From NCBI RefSeq assembly GCF_002159765.1, contig NZ_NFJH01000013.1, forward strand, positions 1 to 46,685: a DNA stretch of 46,685 nt, written 5' to 3'. The notes under the pieces were generated by a model. The model saw nothing but the letters and a program-made list of their open reading frames with translations, did no database searches and had not been told where the DNA came from. Shown here piece by piece: positions 1,819 through 37,247 of the stretch (positions within the stretch are counted from its first letter, which is position 1; each line of letters starts with the position of its first letter). Origin of the DNA: Collinsella sp. An268 (GTDB lineage: Bacteria; Actinomycetota; Coriobacteriia; Coriobacteriales; Coriobacteriaceae). Made by a program: the position numbers and the translations under genes.

Positions 1819-1936
1819 GGCGCGCCCTTTCTTTTATATATAAGTTCTAACTACCAATGATAGTAATAAGACGGTTGATGGTGTGGATTGTGCGCATTCC
1901 CCCTGCGTACGGCCTAAAAGTTATGCGCCGTTGCGC

Positions 1937-2012
1937 AGTGGATAACGGGGCTGGTTTTCCACTGCGGGCCCCTGTGTAAAAGTTTTCCCGCATGCCGCTT
2001 AGGTTATCCACA
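1937..2012. promoter_or_regulatory. DnaA-box cluster between dnaA and dnaN
   Basis: The dnaA-dnaN gap (1819-2067) contains a perfect DnaA box TTATCCACA at 2004-2012 (plus). It also has TTTTACACA on the minus strand at 1973-1981, TTATCCACT on the minus strand at 1937-1945, and a weaker TTTTCCACT at 1955-1963. AT-rich sequence (TTATATATAA) follows at about 1832-1843, immediately upstream of dnaN. The cluster could be part of a bipartite origin, or a DnaA-responsive control region for dnaN. The boxes are seen directly; their role is inferred. Confidence 0.7.
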
Positions 2013-2067
2013 GGTTATGTCCCACCTTTCCCGTCATTTTCCCCACGTCCGATCGTGCCCGTTGCCG

Positions 2068-3846
2068 CTAGGAGCGCAGCATGATCTTGTTGCGCAGCGC
2101 CTGCAGGTCTTCGGCAAACGAGCGGTCCTTCTTGAGGCCCTCGACCACCTTCACCGAGTGCAGGATCGTCGTGTGGTCTCGTCCGCCAAAGGCGGCGCCC
2201 ACGGCCACGCCCGAGATCTCGCACATGTCGAGGGCGAGGTATGCCGCCACGTGCCGCGCGCGCACGATACCTGCCTGGCGTCGCGGCCCGATGAGGTCGG
2301 CGTGGCTCACGTGGTAGAAGTCCTCAACCACCTTCTGCACCGTCTCGACGCTGATGCGCTTGTGCGCCGAGTCGAAGTATTCGTTGGCGATGCGGTCGAT
2401 GTCCTCGGCGGTCAGGTGCTCCCCCGCCTGCTCGCGCTCAAACGACTCCCCCGCGCACCGCTCGCAGAAGCTCTCGAGTTCGCGGATGTTGGTGCCCGAG
2501 ACGCTCGCCATGTGCTTGAGGTCGTCTTCGGTGAGGTGGCCGCCGCCCGTGCGGATGGACGAGAGGAGCGACTGGTCGCCTCGCGGCGCCCCGGCGTCGT
2601 CGGCGGCCGGAAGCACCGTGTTCTCGTAGTAGTGCCGCAAGATCATGTACTTCATCTCAAAACCGGGCTCCGAGACGAGGCAGAGCATGCCGGCGTTAAA
2701 GCGGCTCGTCAGGCGCTCGTCCATGCCGAGGTTTTTGGGTGCGCGGTCTGAGGCGATGGCGACCTTCTTGTTGTTGCGGATGAACTCATCCATCAGGCTG
2801 AAGAAGTTGTCGATGGACGCGGTCTTCCCGATGATGTTCTGGATGTCGTCGATGATGAGGACGTCGGCATCGTGGTAGTCGCGCAGGATGGCGCGGTGCT
2901 GGTCTTTCTGCAGCGCGACCTCGTTGATGAAGTCGTCGATGTAGGCCTGGCTGTTGGCGTACTTGACGCGCAGGTGCGGGCAGTTCTCGTTGAGGTAGTT
3001 CTTGATGGCGAGCAGCAGGTGCGTCTTGCCGAGCCCTGACTTGCCATAGATGAAGAGCGAGCTGTAGCTCTCAGGGTCCTCGGCCGTGGCGGCAAAGCGG
3101 ACGGCCGAGTTGTACGCATGCTTGTTCTCGTCGCCGTAGACGAAGTTCTCAAAGGTGAATTTGGAGTTGATGGGTACCGCGGGATAGCTCGCCGCCGGTG
3201 CGGCAGCGTTCCCCGTGCCAGCGGTCTGCGCGGCGGGCGCGGTTGTCCCTACGGCATGGGCCGGGGCCTGGCTCATGGAGCTCATGAGGCGCTTGAGGTC
3301 GCCCGCGCTGATGGTGTTGACCACCTTGACGCGCGCCTCGCCCTCGTCATCCGCCGGCTCGCTCGAGGCGATGCTGATGGCTGGCGCCGGTGCAGGCGCT
3401 ATCGTCGGTGCGGCTGCTACGGGCGCGGGTACGGCGGCATGCGATGCCGCTGCGGCAGCCGTCGACATGGCAGGCGCCGCCTGCGCGGGCGCCGCGGGAA
3501 CGGCTGCGGATGCGGTCTCCATCGTCGCACCCATGGCAGCCGGCGCGGGTGCGGGCTGCGGCGCCTGAACGGTTTCCCGTGAAACGTTCTCAGCCGCCGG
3601 CAGCGCTGTGGTCACGGTGAGCGAGACGGGCGCGAACGCGATTTCCTCGAGGTAGCGCTCGATGGTGGCGCGCTGTTTTGTGAGCGCGGCTGCGGCAAAG
3701 CGCGACGGTGCCTCAAGGGTGAGGGTCGTGTCCGTGAGTTCGAGCCCGCGCGACTGCTTGAGCATGTTGATGAGGCGCGCGTCGATTCCGTCACGCTCGC
3801 AGAACGAGATGGTATCGTCCAGGATGATCTGCGCTTCGTTGTCCAT
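2068..3846 (-). CDS. dnaA: Chromosomal replication initiator DnaA, with a long Ala/Pro linker
   Basis: DnaA binds 9-bp boxes at oriC and melts the origin. Domain I lies in about the first 85 residues. It is followed by a roughly 140-residue Ala/Pro-rich linker (about 88-228), much longer than in most DnaA proteins; the total is 592 residues against the usual 440-500. The AAA+ core starts at FTFENFVYG, with Walker A GKSGLGKTH and Walker B VLIIDDIQNI. Domain IV has LIGPRRQAGIVRARHVAAYL and the DNA-binding signature FGGRDHTTI. I prefer the ATG at 3846, with GAGG six bases upstream, over an in-frame GTG at 3852 that sits on top of that ribosome site. Only 16 bases separate it from the GHKL gene upstream, so the two are probably one transcript. 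A degenerate parS-like palindrome lies inside the linker coding region. Confidence 0.97.
   Translation of the reverse strand: MDNEAQIILDDTISFCERDGIDARLINMLKQSRGLELTDTTLTLEAPSRFAAAALTKQRATIERYLEEIAFAPVSLTVTTALPAAENVSRETVQAPQPAPAPAAMGATMETASAAVPAAPAQAAPAMSTAAAAASHAAVPAPVAAAPTIAPAPAPAISIASSEPADDEGEARVKVVNTISAGDLKRLMSSMSQAPAHAVGTTAPAAQTAGTGNAAAPAASYPAVPINSKFTFENFVYGDENKHAYNSAVRFAATAEDPESYSSLFIYGKSGLGKTHLLLAIKNYLNENCPHLRVKYANSQAYIDDFINEVALQKDQHRAILRDYHDADVLIIDDIQNIIGKTASIDNFFSLMDEFIRNNKKVAIASDRAPKNLGMDERLTSRFNAGMLCLVSEPGFEMKYMILRHYYENTVLPAADDAGAPRGDQSLLSSIRTGGGHLTEDDLKHMASVSGTNIRELESFCERCAGESFEREQAGEHLTAEDIDRIANEYFDSAHKRISVETVQKVVEDFYHVSHADLIGPRRQAGIVRARHVAAYLALDMCEISGVAVGAAFGGRDHTTILHSVKVVEGLKKDRSFAEDLQALRNKIMLRS
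3571..3586. promoter_or_regulatory. Degenerate parS-like palindrome inside dnaA
   Basis: GGTTTCCCGTGAAACG differs from the parS consensus TGTTTCACGTGAAACA at three positions; the inner 14 bases differ at one. It encodes part of the DnaA linker (Ser-Arg-Glu-Thr). ParB binding here is possible but unproven. Confidence 0.4.
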
Positions 3847-3862
3847 GGTCACCTCGCCCTAC

Positions 3863-5173
3863 TTAAGAATGACTGCGCGCCCAGCTCGCGCCCAGCTCGG
3901 TCAGGTAATACTTCTGACCCTGCTTGACGGTAAAGCCGCGCTTGCCCAGTGTAGCAAGCTCGCGCGACCACGTGGGGCCGGACTGGCCGTAGGCCGCGGT
4001 GAGCTCCGAGGGGCCGGCATGACCGTGTTCCAGCAGGTAGGAGAGGGCAAGGCGACCGCGCTCGCTCACGATGAGCTCGCCCGCGGGCATCGTCGCGCCA
4101 TCCCCCTCTAAGGGAGAATGCGCAGGTTGCGGCCCTGGTGCGGGCATTGTGGAAAACTCATGTCCCGTCTGTGGAAAACTCGCAGACGGTTGTGAATAGC
4201 CGGGGACCGGTTGCCATCCGGGTGCGGACGGGTACGTCGGCCAGGCGGGATATCCCCCTGCCACGGGCGCGTACGGGTTGGCGTAAGGGTTCTGGTACGG
4301 ATACTGGTTCGCATAGGGCTGGGGGTATCCCGTTCCGTAGGGAGCGGGATACGGTCCGCCATAAGCTGGGGGCTGCACAGGCGGCTGCTGCTGGTCTGTG
4401 GGCACCCCGGGTGCGCCCTGCCAGCCCTGCGGCGCCCCGGCTCCCTCGCTCCAAGGTTGCGCCGCAGGGTTCGCCGTCTGCTCCTCCCAGGGGCTCGGCG
4501 GCGTCGTGCCCGCTGCGCTCTGCGTCCTTTCATCCACCGGGCGCACGGCCGCCCCACGACCGCCCGCACGCTTTATCTCGAGAACGCGCTCGGGATCGGT
4601 GCTTACGGTCACGACGGTTCCGCCGCCGAGGTTGTTTTCGATGGAGACGGCCCCTCCTGCCGCCTCGAGGTATTGCTGGACCATCGGCAGGCCGGAGCCG
4701 GTGCCGCGGATATACCGCTTCATACTGCGATTCGCCGAGGTCACGCCAAACTCGAAGGCCCGCTCCTTGTCGGCTATGCCCGGTCCTTGGTCGGCGAACC
4801 TGATGGTGTTGCCGCCGTCCAGAATCGAGATGATGGGTTCGACGAAGTGCGCGTGAATGAAGTTCTCCACTATCTCGCGGATAACCATGAGCGAGATAGC
4901 GCCCCCCTGCTCCTTCATGGCGCGGTAGACCGTGTTGGTCACTTCCTCTAGATAAGAGCGTACGGGGCCGGGCTCGATCACGATGACGCGCGGCGTTGCG
5001 TAGAGGTCGTCGTAGACGGAGATACGTGTCGCATAGGCCGCCGTCTCTGCTTTGCCGGCGGCCTCGGAGGGCGCAGCTCCCGGCTGCTCCGTGGCCGGCG
5101 TGGCGTCCGGGAGGTGCTGATTGTCCGGCGCCGGGTCGCCCGAATCGACAAAGGGATAGAAGTCGTCAGCCAT
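3863..5173 (-). CDS. GHKL ATPase-domain protein with disordered linker and C-terminal winged helix; function unknown
   Basis: I do not recognise a named gene. Residues about 85-195 form a GHKL (histidine-kinase-type) ATP-binding fold: N-box EIVENFIHAHF (100-110), G1 box ADQGPGIAD (127-135), G2 box RGTGSGLPMV (156-165) and a closing GGGTVVTVS strand. No phospho-acceptor histidine domain or transmembrane segment is visible. A linker rich in Pro, Tyr, Gln and Gly follows (about 215-360). The last 70 residues look like a winged helix (LALSYLLEHG, GPSELTAAYG, LGKRGFTVKQGQKYYLTELG). The protein could be an anti-sigma-like or DNA-binding ATPase. It lies between the putative origin and dnaA and is probably the first gene of the dnaA transcript, so a role in initiation control is a reasonable guess. 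Two TTTTCCACA DnaA boxes fall within its coding sequence. The start ATG at 5173 has GGAGATTGAGAG upstream. Confidence 0.85.
   Translation of the reverse strand: MADDFYPFVDSGDPAPDNQHLPDATPATEQPGAAPSEAAGKAETAAYATRISVYDDLYATPRVIVIEPGPVRSYLEEVTNTVYRAMKEQGGAISLMVIREIVENFIHAHFVEPIISILDGGNTIRFADQGPGIADKERAFEFGVTSANRSMKRYIRGTGSGLPMVQQYLEAAGGAVSIENNLGGGTVVTVSTDPERVLEIKRAGGRGAAVRPVDERTQSAAGTTPPSPWEEQTANPAAQPWSEGAGAPQGWQGAPGVPTDQQQPPVQPPAYGGPYPAPYGTGYPQPYANQYPYQNPYANPYAPVAGGYPAWPTYPSAPGWQPVPGYSQPSASFPQTGHEFSTMPAPGPQPAHSPLEGDGATMPAGELIVSERGRLALSYLLEHGHAGPSELTAAYGQSGPTWSRELATLGKRGFTVKQGQKYYLTELGASWARSHS
4148..4178 (-). promoter_or_regulatory. Two DnaA boxes inside the GHKL gene
   Basis: TTTTCCACA occurs twice on the minus strand, at 4148-4156 and 4170-4178, both within the linker coding region. 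Both match TTWTNCACA, are in the same orientation and are 22 bases apart, about two helical turns. They could be origin-flanking regulatory boxes or a coincidence of Phe-Ser-Thr and Ser-Phe-Pro-Gln codons. Confidence 0.5.
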
Positions 5174-5526
5174 GGTCTCTCAATCTCCGTTGGTGCGGTG
5201 TATAGATAGTAGCTCACCTGAAAGGTTTCAAACCTTTCCACAGGTTTTCAAAACATGTTGAAAACTGAAGAAAACGAGTGAAAAGTTATGCACACACCTT
5301 GCACAACCTGTGGAAAACTCCGAAATATGGATGAAAAGTCGTGAAAAGTTCGAATGCGCCTTCAGAGCGGCGTCGAACGCCTGTGATGAGTTGTCGTTAA
5401 CCTGCGGAGATTTGTTGACATTGCCCAGATGTATTCCCTACAATCTGAAAGCTCACGTGCATAAACCGCATGTCGTGCATCATCCACTCGTACGCATGCT
5501 AGAAACGCAGCAGGAGGATTGTAACC
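5174..5526. other. Candidate replication origin (oriC) and divergent promoter region
   Basis: This 353-base gap separates the minus-strand recF-dnaN-dnaA-GHKL block from the plus-strand rpmH-to-parB block. It contains TTATGCACA (5286-5294, plus), TTTTCCACA (5309-5317, minus) and a near-match CTTTCCACA (5234-5242, plus). Around them are runs of GAAAA/TGAAAA and a 19-bp palindrome GAAAGGTTTCAAACCTTTC (5220-5238). A leftward promoter can be read as TTGAAA (5226-5231), 17-base spacer, TATCTA (5203-5208), both on the minus strand. Divergent transcription plus DnaA boxes make this the best oriC candidate; the dnaA-dnaN gap is the alternative. Confidence 0.65.
5415..5444 (+). promoter_or_regulatory. 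Promoter for rpmH
   Basis: A -35 box TTGACA (5415-5420) and a -10 box TACAAT (5439-5444) are separated by 18 bases. They lie about 80 bases before the rpmH start, giving a near-consensus vegetative promoter for the ribosomal protein and RNase P operon. Confidence 0.75.
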
Positions 5527-19102: not shown

Positions 19103-19251
19103 CTCAAGTCGTTTATGAGCGTTAATTGCGTGCTTTCGCGATGACACAGCTTAGGTTTCGTTGAAAACGGGAACGTTTGGGCAGGAAAGTGCTTTATTAC
19201 GATAAAGTGATTTTTGCGAGCCGGTGCGTTTACGCTCATAAACGACTTGAG
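19103..19251. repeat. 149-bp element with perfect 20-bp terminal inverted repeats
   Basis: The bases at 19103-19122 (starting CTCAAGTCGTTT) recur exactly inverted at 19232-19251. The 109-base interior carries a small hairpin, CTTTAT/ATAAAG (19192-19207), and no coding potential. No flanking target duplication is visible. It could be a miniature transposon or a large RNA/DNA hairpin between dnaB and the next gene. Confidence 0.8.
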
Positions 19252-19279
19252 CCATGCTTCATCACCCCCCATCGGCCCC

Positions 19280-19369
19280 TTTCGTTGCAACGATAATGCA
19301 ACGAAACTGCTTTCGTTGCATTTGCGAGTGAATCGAAAAGCCTTTCGTTCTATAATTGATGCAACGAAA
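19280..19369. promoter_or_regulatory. Promoter and TTTCGTTGCA operators of the AlbA_2 gene
   Basis: TTTCGTTGCA occurs at 19280-19289 and 19311-19320, and its inverse TGCAACGAAA at 19297-19306 and 19360-19369. A consensus -10 box TATAAT (19351-19356) lies within the set, ten bases before the gene. The arrangement looks like a multi-site operator for an autoregulated repressor. Confidence 0.7.
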
Positions 19370-19378
19370 GGGGATGCC

Positions 19379-20635
19379 ATGAGAGAAACCCGCGATTTAG
19401 AGTTCAAGCAGTCTGTTTCAAAAACATTCCTTAAGACGGTGAGTGCCTTTGCCAATTACGGTACAGGCACCATCCTGTTTGGAGTCGATGACGACGGAGA
19501 AGTTATCGGGCTTGAGGATCCGGTCGGTGATGCTCTCAAAATCGAGAATATGATCAATGACTCGATTGACCCGGTGCCCCGCTACTCTCTTCTTGTCGAT
19601 GAACAAGCAAAAACGGTGGGCCTTAGGGTGTACGAGGGAAGAAGTAAGCCGTACCTTTATGCAAGAAAGGCGTATCGTCGGGGTGACTCTGCAAGCATAG
19701 AGGTCGATAGAGTTGAACTCTCTCGACTCATTCTCTCGGGGCAAAACATGACATTTGACGAGGCGCCGTCAAATGGAACCGATTTCTCGTTCGAGGTACT
19801 GTCGGAACGCATCATGTCTCACCTCGGTCTAACAAGTTTTGATGACAACACCTTGCGAACGCTTGGCCTTAAATTGCCCGATGGCAGTTACAACCATGCA
19901 GCAGAGATACTTGCAGATCATAACGACCTCGCGGGTGTGGATATGGTTCGCTTTGGTGCAACCATAAGCGAGTTTCTCGACCGTAAGACCGTCACGGGAG
20001 TGTCGGTATTGCAACAATACGATGCAACACTGGAGTGGTACGAGAGATACTGCACCTACGAGGTGGTAGAAGGGGCGTTGCGTAAGAAGGTGGAGCGCAT
20101 TCCGCGGGAGGCGTTCAGGGAGGCAGTTGCAAACGCTCTCGTTCACCGCGTGTGGGATATTCCTGCAAACGTGACCATCGGTATCTATGACGATAAGGTT
20201 GTCGTCACATCTCCCGGGGGCTTGCCGGAAGGGATTAGCGTGGATGATTACCTCGGAGGAGGCATATCGGTTCCGCGGAATCCTCTTATTGCCAACGTCT
20301 TCTTCCGACTTGACTATATCGAGCAATTTGGAACGGGCATTACGCGCATCAACGATGCGTATGAAGAGGCGCTGGTCAAGCCAACGTATGAGGTGCGCGA
20401 GAGCTCAATGGTGGTGACCTTGCCCTGTGTTACCGCGGTTTCGGGAGGGATTCTTCCAGACGAGTCCTTGGTGCTGCAAACATTGAGTCGCACACTGCTT
20501 CTTTCTCGCGGTGATGTTGAGCAGCGAACCGGCTTTACCAAGAGCAAGACGATACGGATCCTCAACAATCTTGTGCAGCGCGGGCTTGTTGCGGCAGAAG
20601 GAGAAGGTCGGAGCCGGAGATACCGTAGGGTGTAG
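19379..20635 (+). CDS. AlbA_2/Schlafen-type putative transcriptional regulator
   Basis: Residues 1-120 match the AlbA_2 (Schlafen-like, formerly AAA_4) DNA-binding domain: RETRDLEFKQS, VSAFANYGTGTILFGVDDDGEVIGL and the following KIENMINDSIDP. Residues about 240-345 resemble the C-terminal domain often labelled HATPase_c_4 or RecG-like (FREAVANALVHRVWDI, VTSPGGLPEGI, RNPLIANVFFRLDYIEQFGTGI). A winged helix closes the protein (SRGDVEQRTGFTKSKTIRILNNLVQRGLV). The ATG at 19379 (418 residues) is chosen because an upstream frame would run through the operators. Operator-like repeats surround its promoter, so autoregulation is likely. The targets are unknown. Its base composition is lower in GC than its neighbours, which with the adjacent inverted-repeat element suggests acquisition. 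Confidence 0.85.
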   Translation: MRETRDLEFKQSVSKTFLKTVSAFANYGTGTILFGVDDDGEVIGLEDPVGDALKIENMINDSIDPVPRYSLLVDEQAKTVGLRVYEGRSKPYLYARKAYRRGDSASIEVDRVELSRLILSGQNMTFDEAPSNGTDFSFEVLSERIMSHLGLTSFDDNTLRTLGLKLPDGSYNHAAEILADHNDLAGVDMVRFGATISEFLDRKTVTGVSVLQQYDATLEWYERYCTYEVVEGALRKKVERIPREAFREAVANALVHRVWDIPANVTIGIYDDKVVVTSPGGLPEGISVDDYLGGGISVPRNPLIANVFFRLDYIEQFGTGITRINDAYEEALVKPTYEVRESSMVVTLPCVTAVSGGILPDESLVLQTLSRTLLLSRGDVEQRTGFTKSKTIRILNNLVQRGLVAAEGEGRSRRYRRV

Positions 20636-24738: not shown

Positions 24739-24761
24739 GGTCTAGCGCATAACCTCAACGT

Positions 24762-24904
24762 GAGGTCAACCTTAGGGTTTAGCACGAGGCTAAATTGAGG
24801 TTTAGCGTGCACCTAGATGAGGTTTAGCAAGAAACCAGCAGGTAAAAGCCTAAACATCACCAGAATCCTAAATTGAGGTTTAGGATGAGGTTAATGAGGT
24901 TTAG
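24762..24904. repeat. TGAGGTTTAG word array
   Basis: TGAGGTTTAG occurs at 24796-24805, 24818-24827, 24874-24883 and 24895-24904, with partial copies at 24762, 24774, 24785 and 24886. Two copies sit in matching palindromes, GCTAAATTGAGGTTTAGC (24789-24806) and CCTAAATTGAGGTTTAGG (24867-24884). The outer base pair is swapped between them, as if pairing were conserved. Confidence 0.75.
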
Positions 24905-25390
24905 GCGTTACTTGGCCGTGCGGCGTGCGGGGATTATCCTGCCCTCGGGCAATCGGCCGCTCGCGGATGATCATGGGATAGGGTGCAGCTCGGTGGAGTC
25001 TAGGTGACCGGTATAATGGACAGCCCCTAGAATCCATGAGGTATTACGTAATAGAGACCAATACACCCCGTCTAGCAGGACGGACGTTCTCAAATTCTTC
25101 AAGGTGAGCGGTCCGAATAGGGGTATGAGCGGTATCTCGCACGACACGAGTGTTATTCGACCATTACGCAAAACTTAAAGATGAATATAATTTAGATGTG
25201 GAAAACATTGGCTATTACCTGCATAAATAACAAGCCACATACCCCGTACATTAGGTAGAGGGGGTACATATTTAAGCAAATCTTAAACCTTAAAGCGAAA
25301 CTAGAATGTTCCATGTCTATCGCTATGCCGTGGCGATAGCTGTGCGCAAATGAACCAGAACTGCCCGCGCACATTGGAGGAGAAGGATAG

Positions 25391-34300: not shown

Positions 34301-34780
34301 ACCACGGTGACCTTTGGTGCCGCGAAGGCGCTCGAGGGCCGCGAGATTGCCGAGGGCGAGTTCGAGTTCGAACTCAAGGGCGCTCAGGGCAACGTGGTGG
34401 CAACGGCGACGAACGACGCGGACGGCGCGGTGACGTTCGAGCCGCAGACCTTCGGCGATGCGGGCACCTACGAGTTCACCATCTCTGAGGTGCAGGGCGA
34501 TGCCGAGGGCGTGACCTACGACACGACGGTTTACAATGTGGTTCTGACGCTTGTGGACAACGGCAGGGGCGGTCTTGAGGTCACCGAGCTCACCTACAAC
34601 GGCGCGGCTGCGCTCCCGGTGTTTACCAACACCTACACCGAGCCCCCGGCGCCGGTTGGGCCCGATGAGGTTATCCCTGCAACGGGCGATGCCGCGGTCG
34701 CAGCCGTCGCCGCAACGGTCGCTATTGGTGGTACTCTGGTGGCAGCGGGCTACGTGACGAGTAAGAAGCGTGGTGAGTAA
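25391..34780 (+). CDS. Giant LPXTG-type surface protein: VWA domain plus about 15 pilin-type (FctA/Cna-B-like) repeats
   Basis: This 3129-residue cell-wall protein starts with a basic, hydrophobic signal peptide that should be cut after AVPAYA (residue 37). A von Willebrand A domain spans about 160-390, with the MIDAS motif DTSGS at 170-174 and FFTDGEP. From about 727 a chain of roughly 110-150-residue domains begins. Each opens with a K-containing strand (VQKNLEGRDW, VTKNLVGRDW, ITKQLNNRD, FTKVFDP), has a central YTVTE-like glutamate and ends F-x-N-x-Y (FKNTY, FVNTY). Lys-Asn isopeptide bonds are expected by analogy with FctA-type pilins. One DUF11-like domain (about 1957-2060, DILTYTIDWANN) interrupts the series. 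The C-terminus has IPATGD (3095), a hydrophobic helix and KKRGE, a sortase signal. The GTG start follows GGAGGAGAAGG. Likely a host-tissue adhesin or stalk. No sortase gene is in the window. Confidence 0.93.
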   Translation: MSLMYLGKKKRFGGRLFALLAALLVVASTLFAVPAYAADGSTSGNPVADFFGGIAQTLGLAPVDESPNVQVLSTEGADTVVDPNTTNVWTNFTRPGGQPSTQNVGRIWTDKSVFDGDYSFTNDNDAGLNGKKVEKGDSDFLVSLSALSSTSNLKEMVKTSQPLDIVLVLDTSGSMSGSKMTNLKNAANSFIDATAENNRGLEQDQQTRLAIVRFASGANTERQLNYVTDQNVQQYKSTINGFRASGATYAEEGLQQAQNELDRNGRADVQQIVIFFTDGEPNHQNGFDNVVAAEAVNTAHEMKQDGTIVYAIGVMNGADASVTDDDGFNEYMNGVSSNYPNATANGSNGSFFDWDGYYNTTFGERAEGDYYKAASDPDSIEEIFDEISDEVQQGVGSGSPIEENTQQGNTEPGTLTFEDQLGNYMQVTGTGAGTGKIQLAYGDQIYTSDNKTTLGNTDTYHFSGAVDGNAVYGAANLSDLVVTVERSDDLATGDKITVTLPASLLPMRHYDVDTDANTMTVSQAYPVRLFYGVSLKADAKTALGTPTSEVYADIVKSQTSDDGASIDFYSNSFTKGAADGSTTASFSPNAGNKFYYYTQDTTLYTNPECTTEANWNTARNANTLYYKDVYWVQTGDGNGAREVTDGYGTVTSGTAEWNAIVRPYQGGAYYIPANTQRTERPHTLTDGKDSNATGTAANVLNPSWTEAGDVTQALGNNGKLSFEKPGSLEIKKNVDWGNASDQTKQDKNEFTFDITNAAAPTGEGEATEPLAGTYNYYVGDSDTAAGQVTFTNGSATLTVDGGTTVRIDGLPAGTTFTVTEQGVGQNGWTVTDATSQENVENTNTTDGVVTGTIPAGSQASLTFSNAYHANEVNLSANTTLKVQKNLEGRDWRDTDSFDFTITGFRAPSVVDPVPVPEDTVITVDASTDAYTASFGDITFDTPGEYRYAIQENGDPEQPIAGIDYSDAIYRVTVMVGDSGTGSLVIDSVKIELMYDDGGNLANTENEGTPVEGDTMAFKNTYNASTDTEGIQGRKVYNDTTGNNPYEGGKFSFKLEAQGGFVTGSGNVNNLTIPAANTPMPDNAQDNAVTTSNVGENFTFPTITFDGNDAGNTYVYKVTEVNTGEAGMTYSAAEHTVQISVEEVAGADGTHIVATVQAPYNNPQNLVFENTYDPADATLTGADAIHGTKTLTGRDMKDGETFYFQLTATNAAAQSVLPNAKTIEVTSLTDGSANFDFGEMSFSKVGKYTFTVNEVADQNGTETTNVSGMTYDANICTVTVDVTDNKQGALVADVTYSNDVNSSVTDKAQFNNTYEASMNYGAEGAGGIVVTKTLNDRAEENNTFLFTITGENEEDTAKLHDQDRKFSHGPLTPGVPNEMEKLQQLTFDETDAGKTYTFIVDELEDEFGPNESADTLKGVDFDQSQYRVDIEVLDNGDGTMHTVTTVTKTMDRNGSAVNEAVYGPSDSATDGYTAPKFGFVNDYNPDPAVVGGSADAKIQVTKTVEGADSAADYTFTLTPVDPDQAQYIEGLTDGKLEVSTNGTIAEGTSQTVEFGELRFTKADSYGFIVKENQPAEDAGWTFDDADGDDATDTHYVEIVITDKNAEGKYDGKLYVESVTSDAGADQPVQITNSYKADPVVVGGEDAEQQITVQKSVTGDDTAADAEFNFLLEPVVDDTNTEAVWRANVEAAEAGFEPKTTITGGVTTDTPKTATFGGIRFKAAGDYTFKVTEVEGTDDQADPSGWTYDGHEAFVTVHVTDNGEGKLGATVSYNNDGATGADKGVTNAAAFTNTYTGSGELDGATDLVVTKNLVGRDWTADDEFTFSIAAGDPTTQQAVDAGNVTLPDSPITIDSETKNHIAAFGNIQFSGSGEHTYTFVVKENVPEGANADNGWTFDHLTYDNSFKTVTVHVTDNGSGELTAELVDESSDELTFTNVYYNPDEAKESAPAEGDTNGVQVGDILTYTIDWANNAVNENGVPVAAEVTVTDKLPVGLVYVGVPEGAIKPTSVSDDNKTIVWELGKQAVGAADTLTFNARVTEDAAPAGEVNNQATVTVGNNEHETNTTHDEIGTGNLTISKTVTVDEEQGTQIDTNKAFTFTIALTDTAGNPLTGAYTLGNVPGEEAPQLISFAGDEAAEIPAGSAVVTLKHGENIVIQGLPEGASYTVTENLNNAEGGADYGYAQVAPVDGEQAAAPATGTIPVGDENASAEFVNAYSTDPGEVPGTGDVDKAFNLTKQFTGRDGNAWLKGDQFSFTLTPVDGAPMPTEGLNEDGTKTVTVGVANVADPENGIASINFGDITYATAGTYKYTVTETNAGDTINGVTYDGDTVDITVTVTDNGSGKLTAAVAKTDEDANASFTNTYDSTIHYGADGKGGLTITKQLNNRDMTAGQFTMTVTAADDASAEKIGGQTVELKSAAAAANTAAPVTGSPFDNVTFNLDDAGKTFTYTIAETGTAPAGYQFDTNVYTVSITPRDNGDGTMTVSTQVTSEGGYNEMTEGVATVPFVNTYDPDQTTVGANGSASIVAHKTLENDDIANYKGAFTFKVTGGDTVVATGSNDAAGNITFSDIAYTSEELYKATHGGSDVIGTATMKTDETTGNEVYTFAYSVTEDALPGDNGVSYVSGNGGVTVVVTDDHSGKLSAEVVYDNDAQSIEFVNAYGTGTDGATTLTLAGSKQLVGVNGAQAPALKAGQFNFSIVGNAATDGTRAPMPESATATNAQSGAVSFGPITYTMENVFGAKASATDESATNEGIETYTAGRTKEFTYTVTENQGGEVIDGITYDASSQTIEVTVTDEGDGKISAAVTGVSDAAKGNDDFTFVNTYAVTPVDSTPTGNGGLTFTKVFDPQSGTRQLAEGDFTFQLTDAAGKVVATGTNDANGKVAMSAIRFTQAGDYSYTLSEVVPEGATPNADGSYTLDGVTYLPAQYTVTAHVMDNHNGTLTVTWDMTNADGDATTTAEFVNVYNVDPTTVTFGAAKALEGREIAEGEFEFELKGAQGNVVATATNDADGAVTFEPQTFGDAGTYEFTISEVQGDAEGVTYDTTVYNVVLTLVDNGRGGLEVTELTYNGAAALPVFTNTYTEPPAPVGPDEVIPATGDAAVAAVAATVAIGGTLVAAGYVTSKKRGE

Positions 34781-34781
34781 C

Positions 34782-35126
34782 ATGCCAGGTACGGGTGCGT
34801 CGCTCACGGGTGTGAGCAACCGGATCAACGGCAGACATGCCTTCATCCACGAGCGCGTACTCGAACTCATTGTGCGCGAGACGGAGTTGCGCGAGTCGGT
34901 CAGCTTTAGCAAGGCCGACCTCGCGCGCCGCCTCGGGTGCTGCGATCGAACCCTCGATCGCGCACTCACCCGCCTCCGCCGCGAAGGGCTCATTATCTCC
35001 GAGCCCACGTACGGACCCTCGGGGGCACAGCTCGGCAACGTGTACCGTGCAACCGAGGAGGGCAAACAGGTTGCCCATCGCTTTACGCGCGAGAAGCCCA
35101 AGCGCAAGCCCGAGGCAGACGCGTAA
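34782..35126 (+). CDS. Small winged-helix DNA-binding protein directly after the adhesin
   Basis: This 114-residue protein has a helix-turn-helix: SFSKADLARRLGCCDRTLDRALTRLRREGLIISEPTYGPSGAQLGNVYRATEEG. That is the look of a winged-helix regulator with a GntR/MarR-like wing. The C-terminus is basic (RFTREKPKRKPEADA). The name of the family is not certain. The ATG at 34782 lies one base after the adhesin stop, with GGTGAG upstream; two in-frame GTG codons (34770, 34773) would overlap the adhesin. It must be co-transcribed with the 9.4-kb adhesin gene, so it could report on, or feed back upon, that gene's transcription. A terminator follows. Confidence 0.85.
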   Translation: MPGTGASLTGVSNRINGRHAFIHERVLELIVRETELRESVSFSKADLARRLGCCDRTLDRALTRLRREGLIISEPTYGPSGAQLGNVYRATEEGKQVAHRFTREKPKRKPEADA

Positions 35127-35195: not shown

Positions 35196-35237
35196 AACGA
35201 CCCCGGCTGGTCTGAACCGCCGGGGTCGTTTTATTTT
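35196..35237 (+). terminator. Terminator of the adhesin/regulator operon
   Basis: AACGACCCCGGC and GCCGGGGTCGTT form a perfect 12-bp stem with an 11-base loop, followed by TTATTTTT. Confidence 0.93.
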
Positions 35238-35310
35238 TGGATCTTCTCTCCATGCACAGTGGAATGCATGGCGTCCCTCGCGCATCCATGCCGCCGTATC
35301 GGATGTATCT

Positions 35311-35474
35311 CTATTTGCATCTTATTTGCTTCTGATTTGCCGGCTATTTGTTCGATAAGGCACTTTCCTGCCGGCAAATCGCGACGACCCAGTCGAAATA
35401 AGCATCTACCTGCGAAATCGTGCAACTCGCTCGCTCTAGCTTTATTTGCTTCTTATTTGACGCCTATTTGCTTG
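35311..35474. repeat. 11-bp-period TATTTGC arrays
   Basis: Four consecutive 11-mers lie at 35311-35354: CTATTTGCATC, TTATTTGCTTC, TGATTTGCCGG and CTATTTGTTCG. Three more lie at 35442-35474: TTATTTGCTTC, TTATTTGACGC and CTATTTGCTTG. The word repeats exactly every 11 bases in both blocks. An inverted GCAAATC (35374-35380) and a CGCAGGTAGA motif (minus, 35405-35414) lie between them. Confidence 0.85.
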
Positions 35475-35542
35475 GTCAATGCTTCCGTCCGTGCTTTTTG
35501 GCACGCGCGGGTGACAGCGTGGACAGGAATAGACCCCGTAGG

Positions 35543-35734
35543 CTACCTAGGAAACCTAGACACTACCTAGGAAACCTAGGAAGCAACTTCCTAAGTAACT
35601 TCTTAAGTAACTTCCTAGGTTTCCTAGGTAAGTTCCTAGGTACACGGTAAAACTTCCTAGGTAAGCGCCAAAACTTACTAGGTTCAGCTCATATATTTCT
35701 AGGTTCAATCGACAGCGCATGAGATTCAATCGAG
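35543..35734. repeat. CTAGG phased array with 9-, 12- and 21-bp steps
   Basis: CCTAG-type cores begin at 35546, 35555, 35566, 35575, 35590, 35602, 35614, 35623, 35635, 35656, 35677 and 35698. The block at 35585-35620 is three 12-mers: AACTTCCTAAGT, AACTTCTTAAGT and AACTTCCTAGGT. From 35630 the unit is 21 bp (35630, 35651, 35672, 35693, 35714), the last copies sharing GTTCAATCGA or ATTCAATCGA. Most cores are palindromic (CCTAGG, CTTAAG). Confidence 0.88.
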
Positions 35735-36041
35735 ACGGACTCGGCTGAGAGCAGACTCATCGTGCCCGCGCAGCTGCTGCAAAACGGCGGCGCGATAGCG
35801 CTGATGTAGCCGCGCGGATGGGGAGCCGCTTGCATAGGGACGTTTGGTGAGAGGTTCCGTGTGCTTGGCGGCTAACGACAGGAACCTGACGTTAGCGCAT
35901 GCGGGCCCAAAAGATTCACCCAGGCGGAAGGTGCCAGAATGGGTACCCTTACAACGATATGTGTTGCGGTGCAGGCGGTGCTTTACGCAGTTGCGTTGTC
36001 GTCTGCGCCCGATGGCCTGAGTCCACATGCGGGGAGGCACC

Positions 36042-36779
36042 ATGGCAGACGAGAAGCGTGACGAGGCGTTGGATGCGGCAGAGCGCACCGATGAGATTGG
36101 CTCCATCGAGGTGGAGGACGGCGACCGCACCGAGGAGAACGCCTCTCCCGAGCCCGAGATGGAAGATCTGCCCGCGCTCGTGCTGGGCGACGAGGCGGAG
36201 CACGACGCCGAGCTCCACGAGGAGGTCATCGATAGCGAGATCGCCTGGCGCGGCAAGATCTTCGACGTCGAGCGCCTGCAGGTGCGCCTGCCCAATGGCC
36301 ACACGTCCGTGCGCGACGTGGTGCGCCACCGGGGTGCCGCGGCCGTGGTGGCCCTCACCACGAGCGGCAAGATCGCCCTCGTCCGTCAGTACCGCACCTC
36401 ACTCGGCCGCGTGACGGTGGAGATTCCCGCCGGCAAGCTCGACCCGGGCGAGGATCCGCTCGAGTGCGCCAAGCGCGAGCTCAAAGAGGAGACGGGCTTT
36501 GTTGCCGGACGCATCGCCTATCTCACCACCATCGCGACGAGTTGCGGGTTTGCAGACGAGCTCATCCACATCTACCTAGCAACCCAGCTCTCGTTTGAGG
36601 GTGCGCGCCCCGATGACGACGAGTTCCTCAACGTCGACCTCGTGCCGGTGGGCGAGCTGGTGGATGCCGTGCTCGACGGCAAGATCGAAGACGCCAAGAC
36701 TGTGGTTGGCGCACTCGCCTGCGAGGTCATGAGCCGTCGGCTTGCCGACGCCGCCGTGGCGGAGGAGGCGGGCGATTAG
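36042..36779 (+). CDS. Nudix hydrolase, ADP-ribose pyrophosphatase-like, with acidic N-terminal extension
   Basis: The Nudix box GX5EX7REUXEEXGU is complete in GKLDPGEDPLECAKRELKEETGF. The preceding ALVRQYR-type strand and VEIPAGK resemble ADP-ribose/ADP-sugar pyrophosphatases (NudF/YqkG group). These hydrolyse ADP-ribose to AMP and ribose 5-phosphate; substrate assignment by motif alone is tentative. The 245-residue protein has about 65 extra, strongly acidic residues before the catalytic domain (rich in Glu and Asp), which homologues usually lack. The ATG at 36042 has GGGGAGG upstream; the ATG at 36027 overlaps that site. It lies downstream of the CTAGG array. Confidence 0.9.
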   Translation: MADEKRDEALDAAERTDEIGSIEVEDGDRTEENASPEPEMEDLPALVLGDEAEHDAELHEEVIDSEIAWRGKIFDVERLQVRLPNGHTSVRDVVRHRGAAAVVALTTSGKIALVRQYRTSLGRVTVEIPAGKLDPGEDPLECAKRELKEETGFVAGRIAYLTTIATSCGFADELIHIYLATQLSFEGARPDDDEFLNVDLVPVGELVDAVLDGKIEDAKTVVGALACEVMSRRLADAAVAEEAGD

Positions 36780-37247
36780 GCCGCCGGCACCTGCCCTCGC
36801 CGCCGCGCCCGCTCTTGCCTTAGACGGACAGTAATCTGGCGCCATTCCTAGGTTATGGCCTAACTTGGGGTGGCGCTATCTTTATGCAAGGTTATCCGTC
36901 GCGCTTGGCACTTGGATGATAACTAAGAGGCTACTGAGTGATAACTGAAAGGCAACTGAAGCCGCGTGTGCCGTGAATGAGCCGATGCGAAAACCCGCAG
37001 GTAGAACGCGTGAAGCGGAAGCGAGACCAGTGCCGAGTGACCGGTTTTGTGATTCTCAGGCAACTGAATGTGATTCGGCGGCAACTGAACCGAACGTATG
37101 TTTCTCGTTTGTCTGTAATCCGCCGCACCGCCGCACCGCCGCATCGGCCGCTGTCGTATACTAGGGCGTTGCCGCGCCGCCGCGCTTTGCCGTGCGCCTT
37201 ACCCTGCGGCTTCGTTTGCGTAAACGCCCGATAGATAGCGAGTACCC
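36780..37247. other. 468-base non-coding region with AACTGA array
   Basis: It contains a possible long imperfect hairpin (about 36839-36878, GGCGCCA...TGGCGC with inner TAGGTTATGGCCTA) that may end the Nudix gene. It also holds the AACTGA array (36918-37090) and one AAACCCGCAGGTAGA motif (36991-37005). Short frames here are not credible genes. Confidence 0.65.
36918..37090. repeat. 11-bp-period AACTGA array
   Basis: Four consecutive 11-mers lie at 36918-36961: GATAACTAAGA, GGCTACTGAGT, GATAACTGAAA and GGCAACTGAAG. Two further copies of GGCAACTGAA start at 37059 and 37080, 21 bases apart. Confidence 0.8.

Follow-up and report, generated by a model that had tools for sequence, protein, structure and literature searches.

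A CTAGG-core array in Collinsella sp. An268 that is probably a solo operator array left by a lost AlbA_2 regulator gene

Here, we report a periodic array of 9-bp cores in Collinsella sp. An268 that is probably a solo operator array, left after the loss of its autoregulator gene of the AlbA_2-HATPase_c_4-winged-helix (wHTH) type. The window is the whole stretch of DNA analyzed (46,685 nucleotides, contig 5 of a 2.37-Mb draft genome). Arrays sharing its motif and grammar are linked to one clade of such genes in other genera, the clade gene is missing here, and a locus of Bifidobacterium stellenboschense gives a snapshot of gene loss. For these reasons, we read the array as the likely remnant of an array-gene-array module.

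The array occupies window positions 35545 to 35704 (160 bases) and consists of twelve 9-bp cores of TTCCTAGGT, of which 7 are exact, 3 have one mismatch, and 2 have two mismatches, the maximum allowed. Four leftward cores are followed by eight rightward ones (----++++++++) in steps of 9-11-9-14-12-12-9-12-21-21-21 bp, the orientation turning at the 14-bp step (35574 to 35588). Inside it fall 10 of the 52 CTAG copies and 7 of the 11 CCTAGG copies in the window. The initial annotation, made from the sequence without database searches, had described three exact 12-bp steps at 35585 to 35620; these are three 12-bp words, that is, two steps, and a third 12-bp step follows at 35621 to 35633. Of its five 21-bp units, four contain a core; all that is left in the fifth is TTCAATCGA. 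Its placing of the cores on one DNA face holds for the 21-bp and 9+12-bp steps and fails for the 12-bp steps alone, since each rotates the face by ~50 degrees. The inverted orientation of the left block (Table 1), absent from that description, proved diagnostic. CRISPR had been discounted, rightly: the repeats are 9 bp with spacers of 0 to 12 bp, as opposed to long repeats with unique spacers of constant length.

Table 1. Coordinates of the array, its surroundings, and gene-linked arrays elsewhere (window positions unless a locus is named)
Feature	Coordinates	Strand	Remarks
118-aa small HTH protein (Crp-like HTH)	34770..35126	+	Adjoins big adhesin in congeners without the array too
Terminator-like hairpin of upstream gene	35196..35230		Inverted repeat, then T run; left edge of hypervariable interval
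Lineage-specific interval	35231..35930		Terminator to conserved promoter-side GGGTACCC of NUDIX gene
Left inverted block	35545..35582	-	Four ACCTAGGAA-type cores: 35545, 35554 (2 mismatches), 35565, 35574; steps 9, 11, 9
Centre-right block	35588..35641	+	Cores TTCCTAAGT 35588, TTCTTAAGT 35600, TTCCTAGGT 35612, 35621, 35633; steps 12, 12, 9, 12
21-bp block	35633..35704	+	Cores 35633, 35654, 35675 (TTACTAGGT), 35696 (TTTCTAGGT)
Core-less continuation	35703..35733	+	TTCAATCGA twice, 21 bp apart; kept in congener G001
NUDIX hydrolase	36027..36779	+	Found in congeners without the array
Arcanobacterium L183	Array 1664-1873, gene 1922-3430		Array directly before clade gene
B. subtile L190	Array 3013-3100, gene 3144-4676		Array directly before clade gene
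Further gene-adjoining arrays: Actinomycetaceae L266, B. tibiigranuli L197/L156, B. simiarum L271, B. aesculapii L188, G530			Directly before clade gene

The array is real, well beyond what chance gives. In 2000 dinucleotide shuffles of positions 35541 to 35735, exact cores averaged 0.0075 (maximum, 1) and cores with at most one mismatch averaged 0.15 (maximum, 4), as against 7 and 10, respectively, in the array. The annotation's counts, at least twelve CCTAG-type cores in about 190 bases among them, were close to correct, and the excess over shuffled sequence, a check it had proposed, was confirmed. Autocorrelation at 21 bp was 0.517 (0.255 in shuffles) and was reached by 0 of 2000 shuffles; the value at 20 bp was likewise matched by 0 of 2000 and that at 12 bp by 4 of 2000, and 9-bp autocorrelation alone was not significant (119 of 2000 shuffles reached the observed value). 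Among 20 stretches of the same genome (447 kb), the array was the sole non-coding stretch to pass the 0.58 threshold for 100-bp autocorrelation. In a pattern search across the genome, no second TTNCTAGGT pair with a 21-bp step and fewer than three mismatches turned up, and viral, phage, and plasmid collections gave no match to the array. Rfam matches were sub-threshold, confined to eukaryotic microRNA families, and caused by palindromes; they were discarded. Between the 21-bp units, core columns are 0.92 identical and all other columns 0.38 (84% and 39% in the array of congener G001). Recent tandem duplication keeps cores and spacers alike, whereas here the cores are fixed and the spacers free, so the array is a set of selected sites.

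The array lies between the terminator of the small HTH gene and the NUDIX gene, in an interval that is very short in congener G007, ~100 bp in G004 and G005, ~250 bp in G006, and 700 to 820 bp in the window's genome (G000) and G001; in G003, it holds a transposase. Only 2 of 395 genomes of the order (G000 and G001, at the same locus) carry a pair of TTCCTAGGT cores. In G001, the array has one more 21-bp unit and a rearranged center. The neighboring genes do not need the array, and the small HTH protein was rejected as its partner because it is conserved in congeners lacking the array.

Other short repeats were seen nearby. TATTTGC repeats in steps of 11 bp (35307 to 35351 and 35437 to 35471) precede the CTAGG array by 200 bp; they are rearranged in G001, have no adjoining gene, and are possibly another solo array. 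A GCTAACGACAGG...CCTGACGTTAGC hairpin lies at 35873 to 35898, and G001 (L009, 1950 to 2062) carries a 108-bp insertion with two more hairpins related to it. Repeats of the GGCAACTGAA type, spaced 21 to 22 bp, precede an ABC transporter gene (36917 to 37089); the ~230-bp block that holds them is cleanly missing from G001.

A total of 84,980 species were scanned for two TTCCTAGGT cores; only the matches listed were followed, so counts of solo and gene-linked arrays are lower bounds. Among these matches, the same core, orientation rule, and steps recurred in Arcanobacterium, another Actinomycetaceae genome, Bifidobacterium, Alloscardovia, Aeriscardovia, and Galliscardovia. In most such Bifidobacteriaceae and Actinomycetaceae genomes listed, the array lies directly upstream of a gene of one AlbA_2 clade, which encodes Schlafen AlbA_2 (PF04326), HATPase_c_4 (PF13749), and a C-terminal winged helix, and in B. 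subtile, B. tibiigranuli, B. simiarum, and B. aesculapii there is a second array just after the gene. In most of 17 further arrays, leftward cores come first, the steps measure 8 to 9, 11 to 13, and 20 to 21 bp, and the turn spans 13 to 15 or 24 to 25 bp; the window array agrees in motif (7/12 cores exact) and in orientation and steps. Arrays occur in 11 of 151 Bifidobacteriaceae genomes. All arrays of a genome sit at one locus in 10 genomes, B. stellenboschense standing apart. Clade genes with 79% or more identity to the query were present in 4/11 array genomes versus 0/39 array-free genomes tested (best, 46%; Fisher P = 0.0014). Many Bacteroidota matches (Prevotella, Porphyromonas) were 10-bp or 22- to 23-bp tandem runs of another grammar and were set aside as probably unrelated; L217, L204, L170, and other loci of Prevotella-like genomes have TTCCTAGGT-like words in 10-bp tandem runs, and Porphyromonas uenonis has paired, inverted 23-bp runs of such words all over its genome.

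Diverged relatives of the clade gene also have an array upstream, namely, a broken gene (G434) and the Aeriscardovia gene, whose wHTH is split off. The latter locus (L246, 2853 to 4465) has two TTCCTAGGT arrays before a separate 105-aa wHTH open reading frame (ORF), itself upstream of a wHTH-less AlbA_2-HATPase ORF. The only other 21-bp CTAGG array in the family (G049) lies directly upstream of an AlbA_2 (PF04326) gene; the clade protein there is 58% identical, and the CTAG array has 8+13 = 21-bp steps and a changed motif, TTCCCTAGT. The recognition helix reads S-x-K-T-[IV]-R-[DE] in proteins with TTCCTAGGT and S-I-K-T-V-R-R in the G049 protein. Such pairing of helix and motif would most naturally mean that the wHTH reads the core. 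The suggestion of a DNA-binding protein in the initial annotation is well supported by the conserved cores, the free spacers, and the winged-helix regulator gene beside the same array in other genera; that the array might be the orphan of a known protein family had not been foreseen.

Gene-specific arrays are common before AlbA_2 genes. In the DNA before 92 such genes, we found many arrays of a short motif particular to the gene, in direct and inverted order. At least 5 copies, beyond every shuffle, were present in 27/92 AlbA_2 upstream regions versus 5/152 other upstream regions of G000, a comparison whose P value is too small because the AlbA_2 set includes related genes and the controls come from one genome. 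A gene in G046 has arrays on both sides, with a motif other than TTCCTAGGT. Before the G000 AlbA_2 genes whose upstream DNA was read, the TTCCTAGGT motif is absent. The window itself holds a gene-linked example of the same kind, an AlbA_2, HATPase_c_4, and MarR-like gene between dnaB and purA (19214 to 20635) with its own upstream TGCAACGAAA array. Two arrays in direct and inverted order stand apart from such genes: a GAGGTTTAG array between purD and the gene for a 3129-aa surface protein (24745 to 24915), with no adjoining AlbA_2 gene, and a GGATTGTAT/ATACAATCC array on contig 23 of G000 (L056, 8100 to 8300), with no recognized gene adjoining. A AGTTTTCCACAGG/TTTTCA-rich stretch (5200 to 5390) precedes a HATPase_c and wHTH gene (3863 to 5173), directly after which come dnaA (2068 to 3852) and dnaN (715 to 1818); this neighborhood is a probable replication origin region.

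At clade-level identity, neither G000 nor G001 has a clade gene (best relatives, ~35% and ~31% identical, respectively), no near relative of the two carries one with which they could be compared, and no AlbA_2 gene or remnant is recognizable beside the window array. It is consequently called a solo array and not an intact module. No known array partner was found in G000, ~19% of which was searched for a stand-alone wHTH. Further arrays in genomes without a clade gene (E <= 1e-60) were found in Alloscardovia (G395, with galK on one side and a DUF711 gene on the other), Galliscardovia (G398), and three Bifidobacteriaceae genomes (G489, G502, and G504). The G502 array has a 9/12/21 run and the spacer word GCCAAAACTT common to G000 and G001. 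Both the G502 and the G504 array precede the same HD-domain gene, so solo arrays may be retained in some cases.

B. stellenboschense (L320) has both a module with a truncated gene and a solo array. Locus A retains the upstream and downstream arrays, but of the gene between them only about the final 80 codons are left, and the reading frame changes within the wHTH. At a distance of 4.4 kb, locus B is a hybrid array whose left part corresponds to the upstream arrays and whose right part corresponds to the downstream arrays, most simply explained by recombination between flanking arrays.

For the window array, we propose the following. The C-terminal winged helix of clade regulators is predicted to bind the cores, several such domains probably doing so cooperatively along the 9/12/21-bp ladder, and the bound regulator would, judging by position, control transcription of its own gene. 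In an ancestor of G000 and G001, the gene would have been lost, most simply by recombination or deletion between upstream and downstream arrays, so that a single array stayed behind without a known partner in the genome.

An unlikely alternative is that the solo array still functions in trans, bound by an AlbA_2 regulator that has diverged or by a wHTH protein that has become detached, and controlling a neighbor such as the NUDIX gene. Its cores are mostly intact in G000 and G001, with little more decay than in gene-linked arrays, which makes such function possible; the likeness of the G502 array down to the spacer word and the position shared by the G502 and G504 arrays add to its weight, and the separate wHTH ORF of Aeriscardovia, with the same motif, is an example of a detached wHTH. 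Against this, in the alignable right part of the array, G000 and G001 differ at 3/27 core and 4/36 spacer positions, so the cores are no better kept than the spacers, which, in so tiny a sample, would fit lost constraint. Neither the G000 AlbA_2 upstream DNA read nor the genome-wide search revealed a second site set, and congeners have the NUDIX gene without the array.

A purely mutational origin, by local tandem duplication and slippage with no binding protein, is very improbable. In its favor, the interval around the array varies and contains further short repeats; against it stand near-random spacers beside nearly fixed cores, and the same core and grammar beside one gene clade in other families. 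Equally little probability attaches to another type of regulator, either LytTR proteins, on direct repeats 21 bp apart, or a MerR protein resembling BldC. LytTR sites are commonly 21 to 22 bp apart, a spacing that the array fits, and the genome encodes five LytTR proteins; these were ruled out as partners by the motif, which is not LytTR-like, and by the inverted block. BldC binds 9-bp direct repeats cooperatively, head to tail (PMC5859096), but these arrays turn from leftward to rightward, and in other genomes they are linked to AlbA_2-wHTH genes and to neither LytTR nor BldC. The iteron-like role raised in the initial annotation is the least probable of all: sites are directly repeated and dnaA and dnaN lie in the window, but ~32 kb away, with no initiator gene adjoining (the neighbors are the small HTH protein and the NUDIX hydrolase), no plasmid context, no plasmid or phage match, chromosomal relatives beside a regulator gene, and an array missing from most congeners and hence dispensable.

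Returning to the solo operator array, its closest kin are the AlbA_2/HATPase_c_4/winged-helix proteins (COG2865-type "predicted regulators"), one clade of which adjoins the same TTCCTAGGT arrays in other Actinomycetota, although the clade gene is missing here. We found no paper describing operators of AlbA_2-wHTH proteins in the open-licence literature. By analogy, BldC operators may offer the nearest mechanism (9-bp units, variable copy number, periodic, likely cooperative), but they belong to another protein family, and the window array adds an orientation flip and 12- and 21-bp steps. Solo long terminal repeats of retroelements are likewise a lone flanking repeat after recombination deletes the gene between two copies; unlike them, the arrays show no sign of transposition and are predicted operators, not terminal repeats. 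Iterons share directly repeated predicted binding sites about two helical turns apart, whereas the window array is chromosomal, dispensable, and without a replication gene.

More broadly, and tentatively, AlbA_2-wHTH genes and their flanking arrays might be self-contained modules that diversify fast and, much as selfish or addiction-like elements do, enter and leave genomes, with solo arrays as their footprints or as reusable host operators; we consider this unlikely. From sequence alone, gene-specific predicted operator arrays can be assigned to many members of the widespread Schlafen-type (AlbA_2) family, with a 9/12/21-bp grammar common to the TTCCTAGGT-clade arrays and protein-motif pairs that are directly testable. 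Operators can outlive their regulators, which matters when regulons are read from intergenic repeats.
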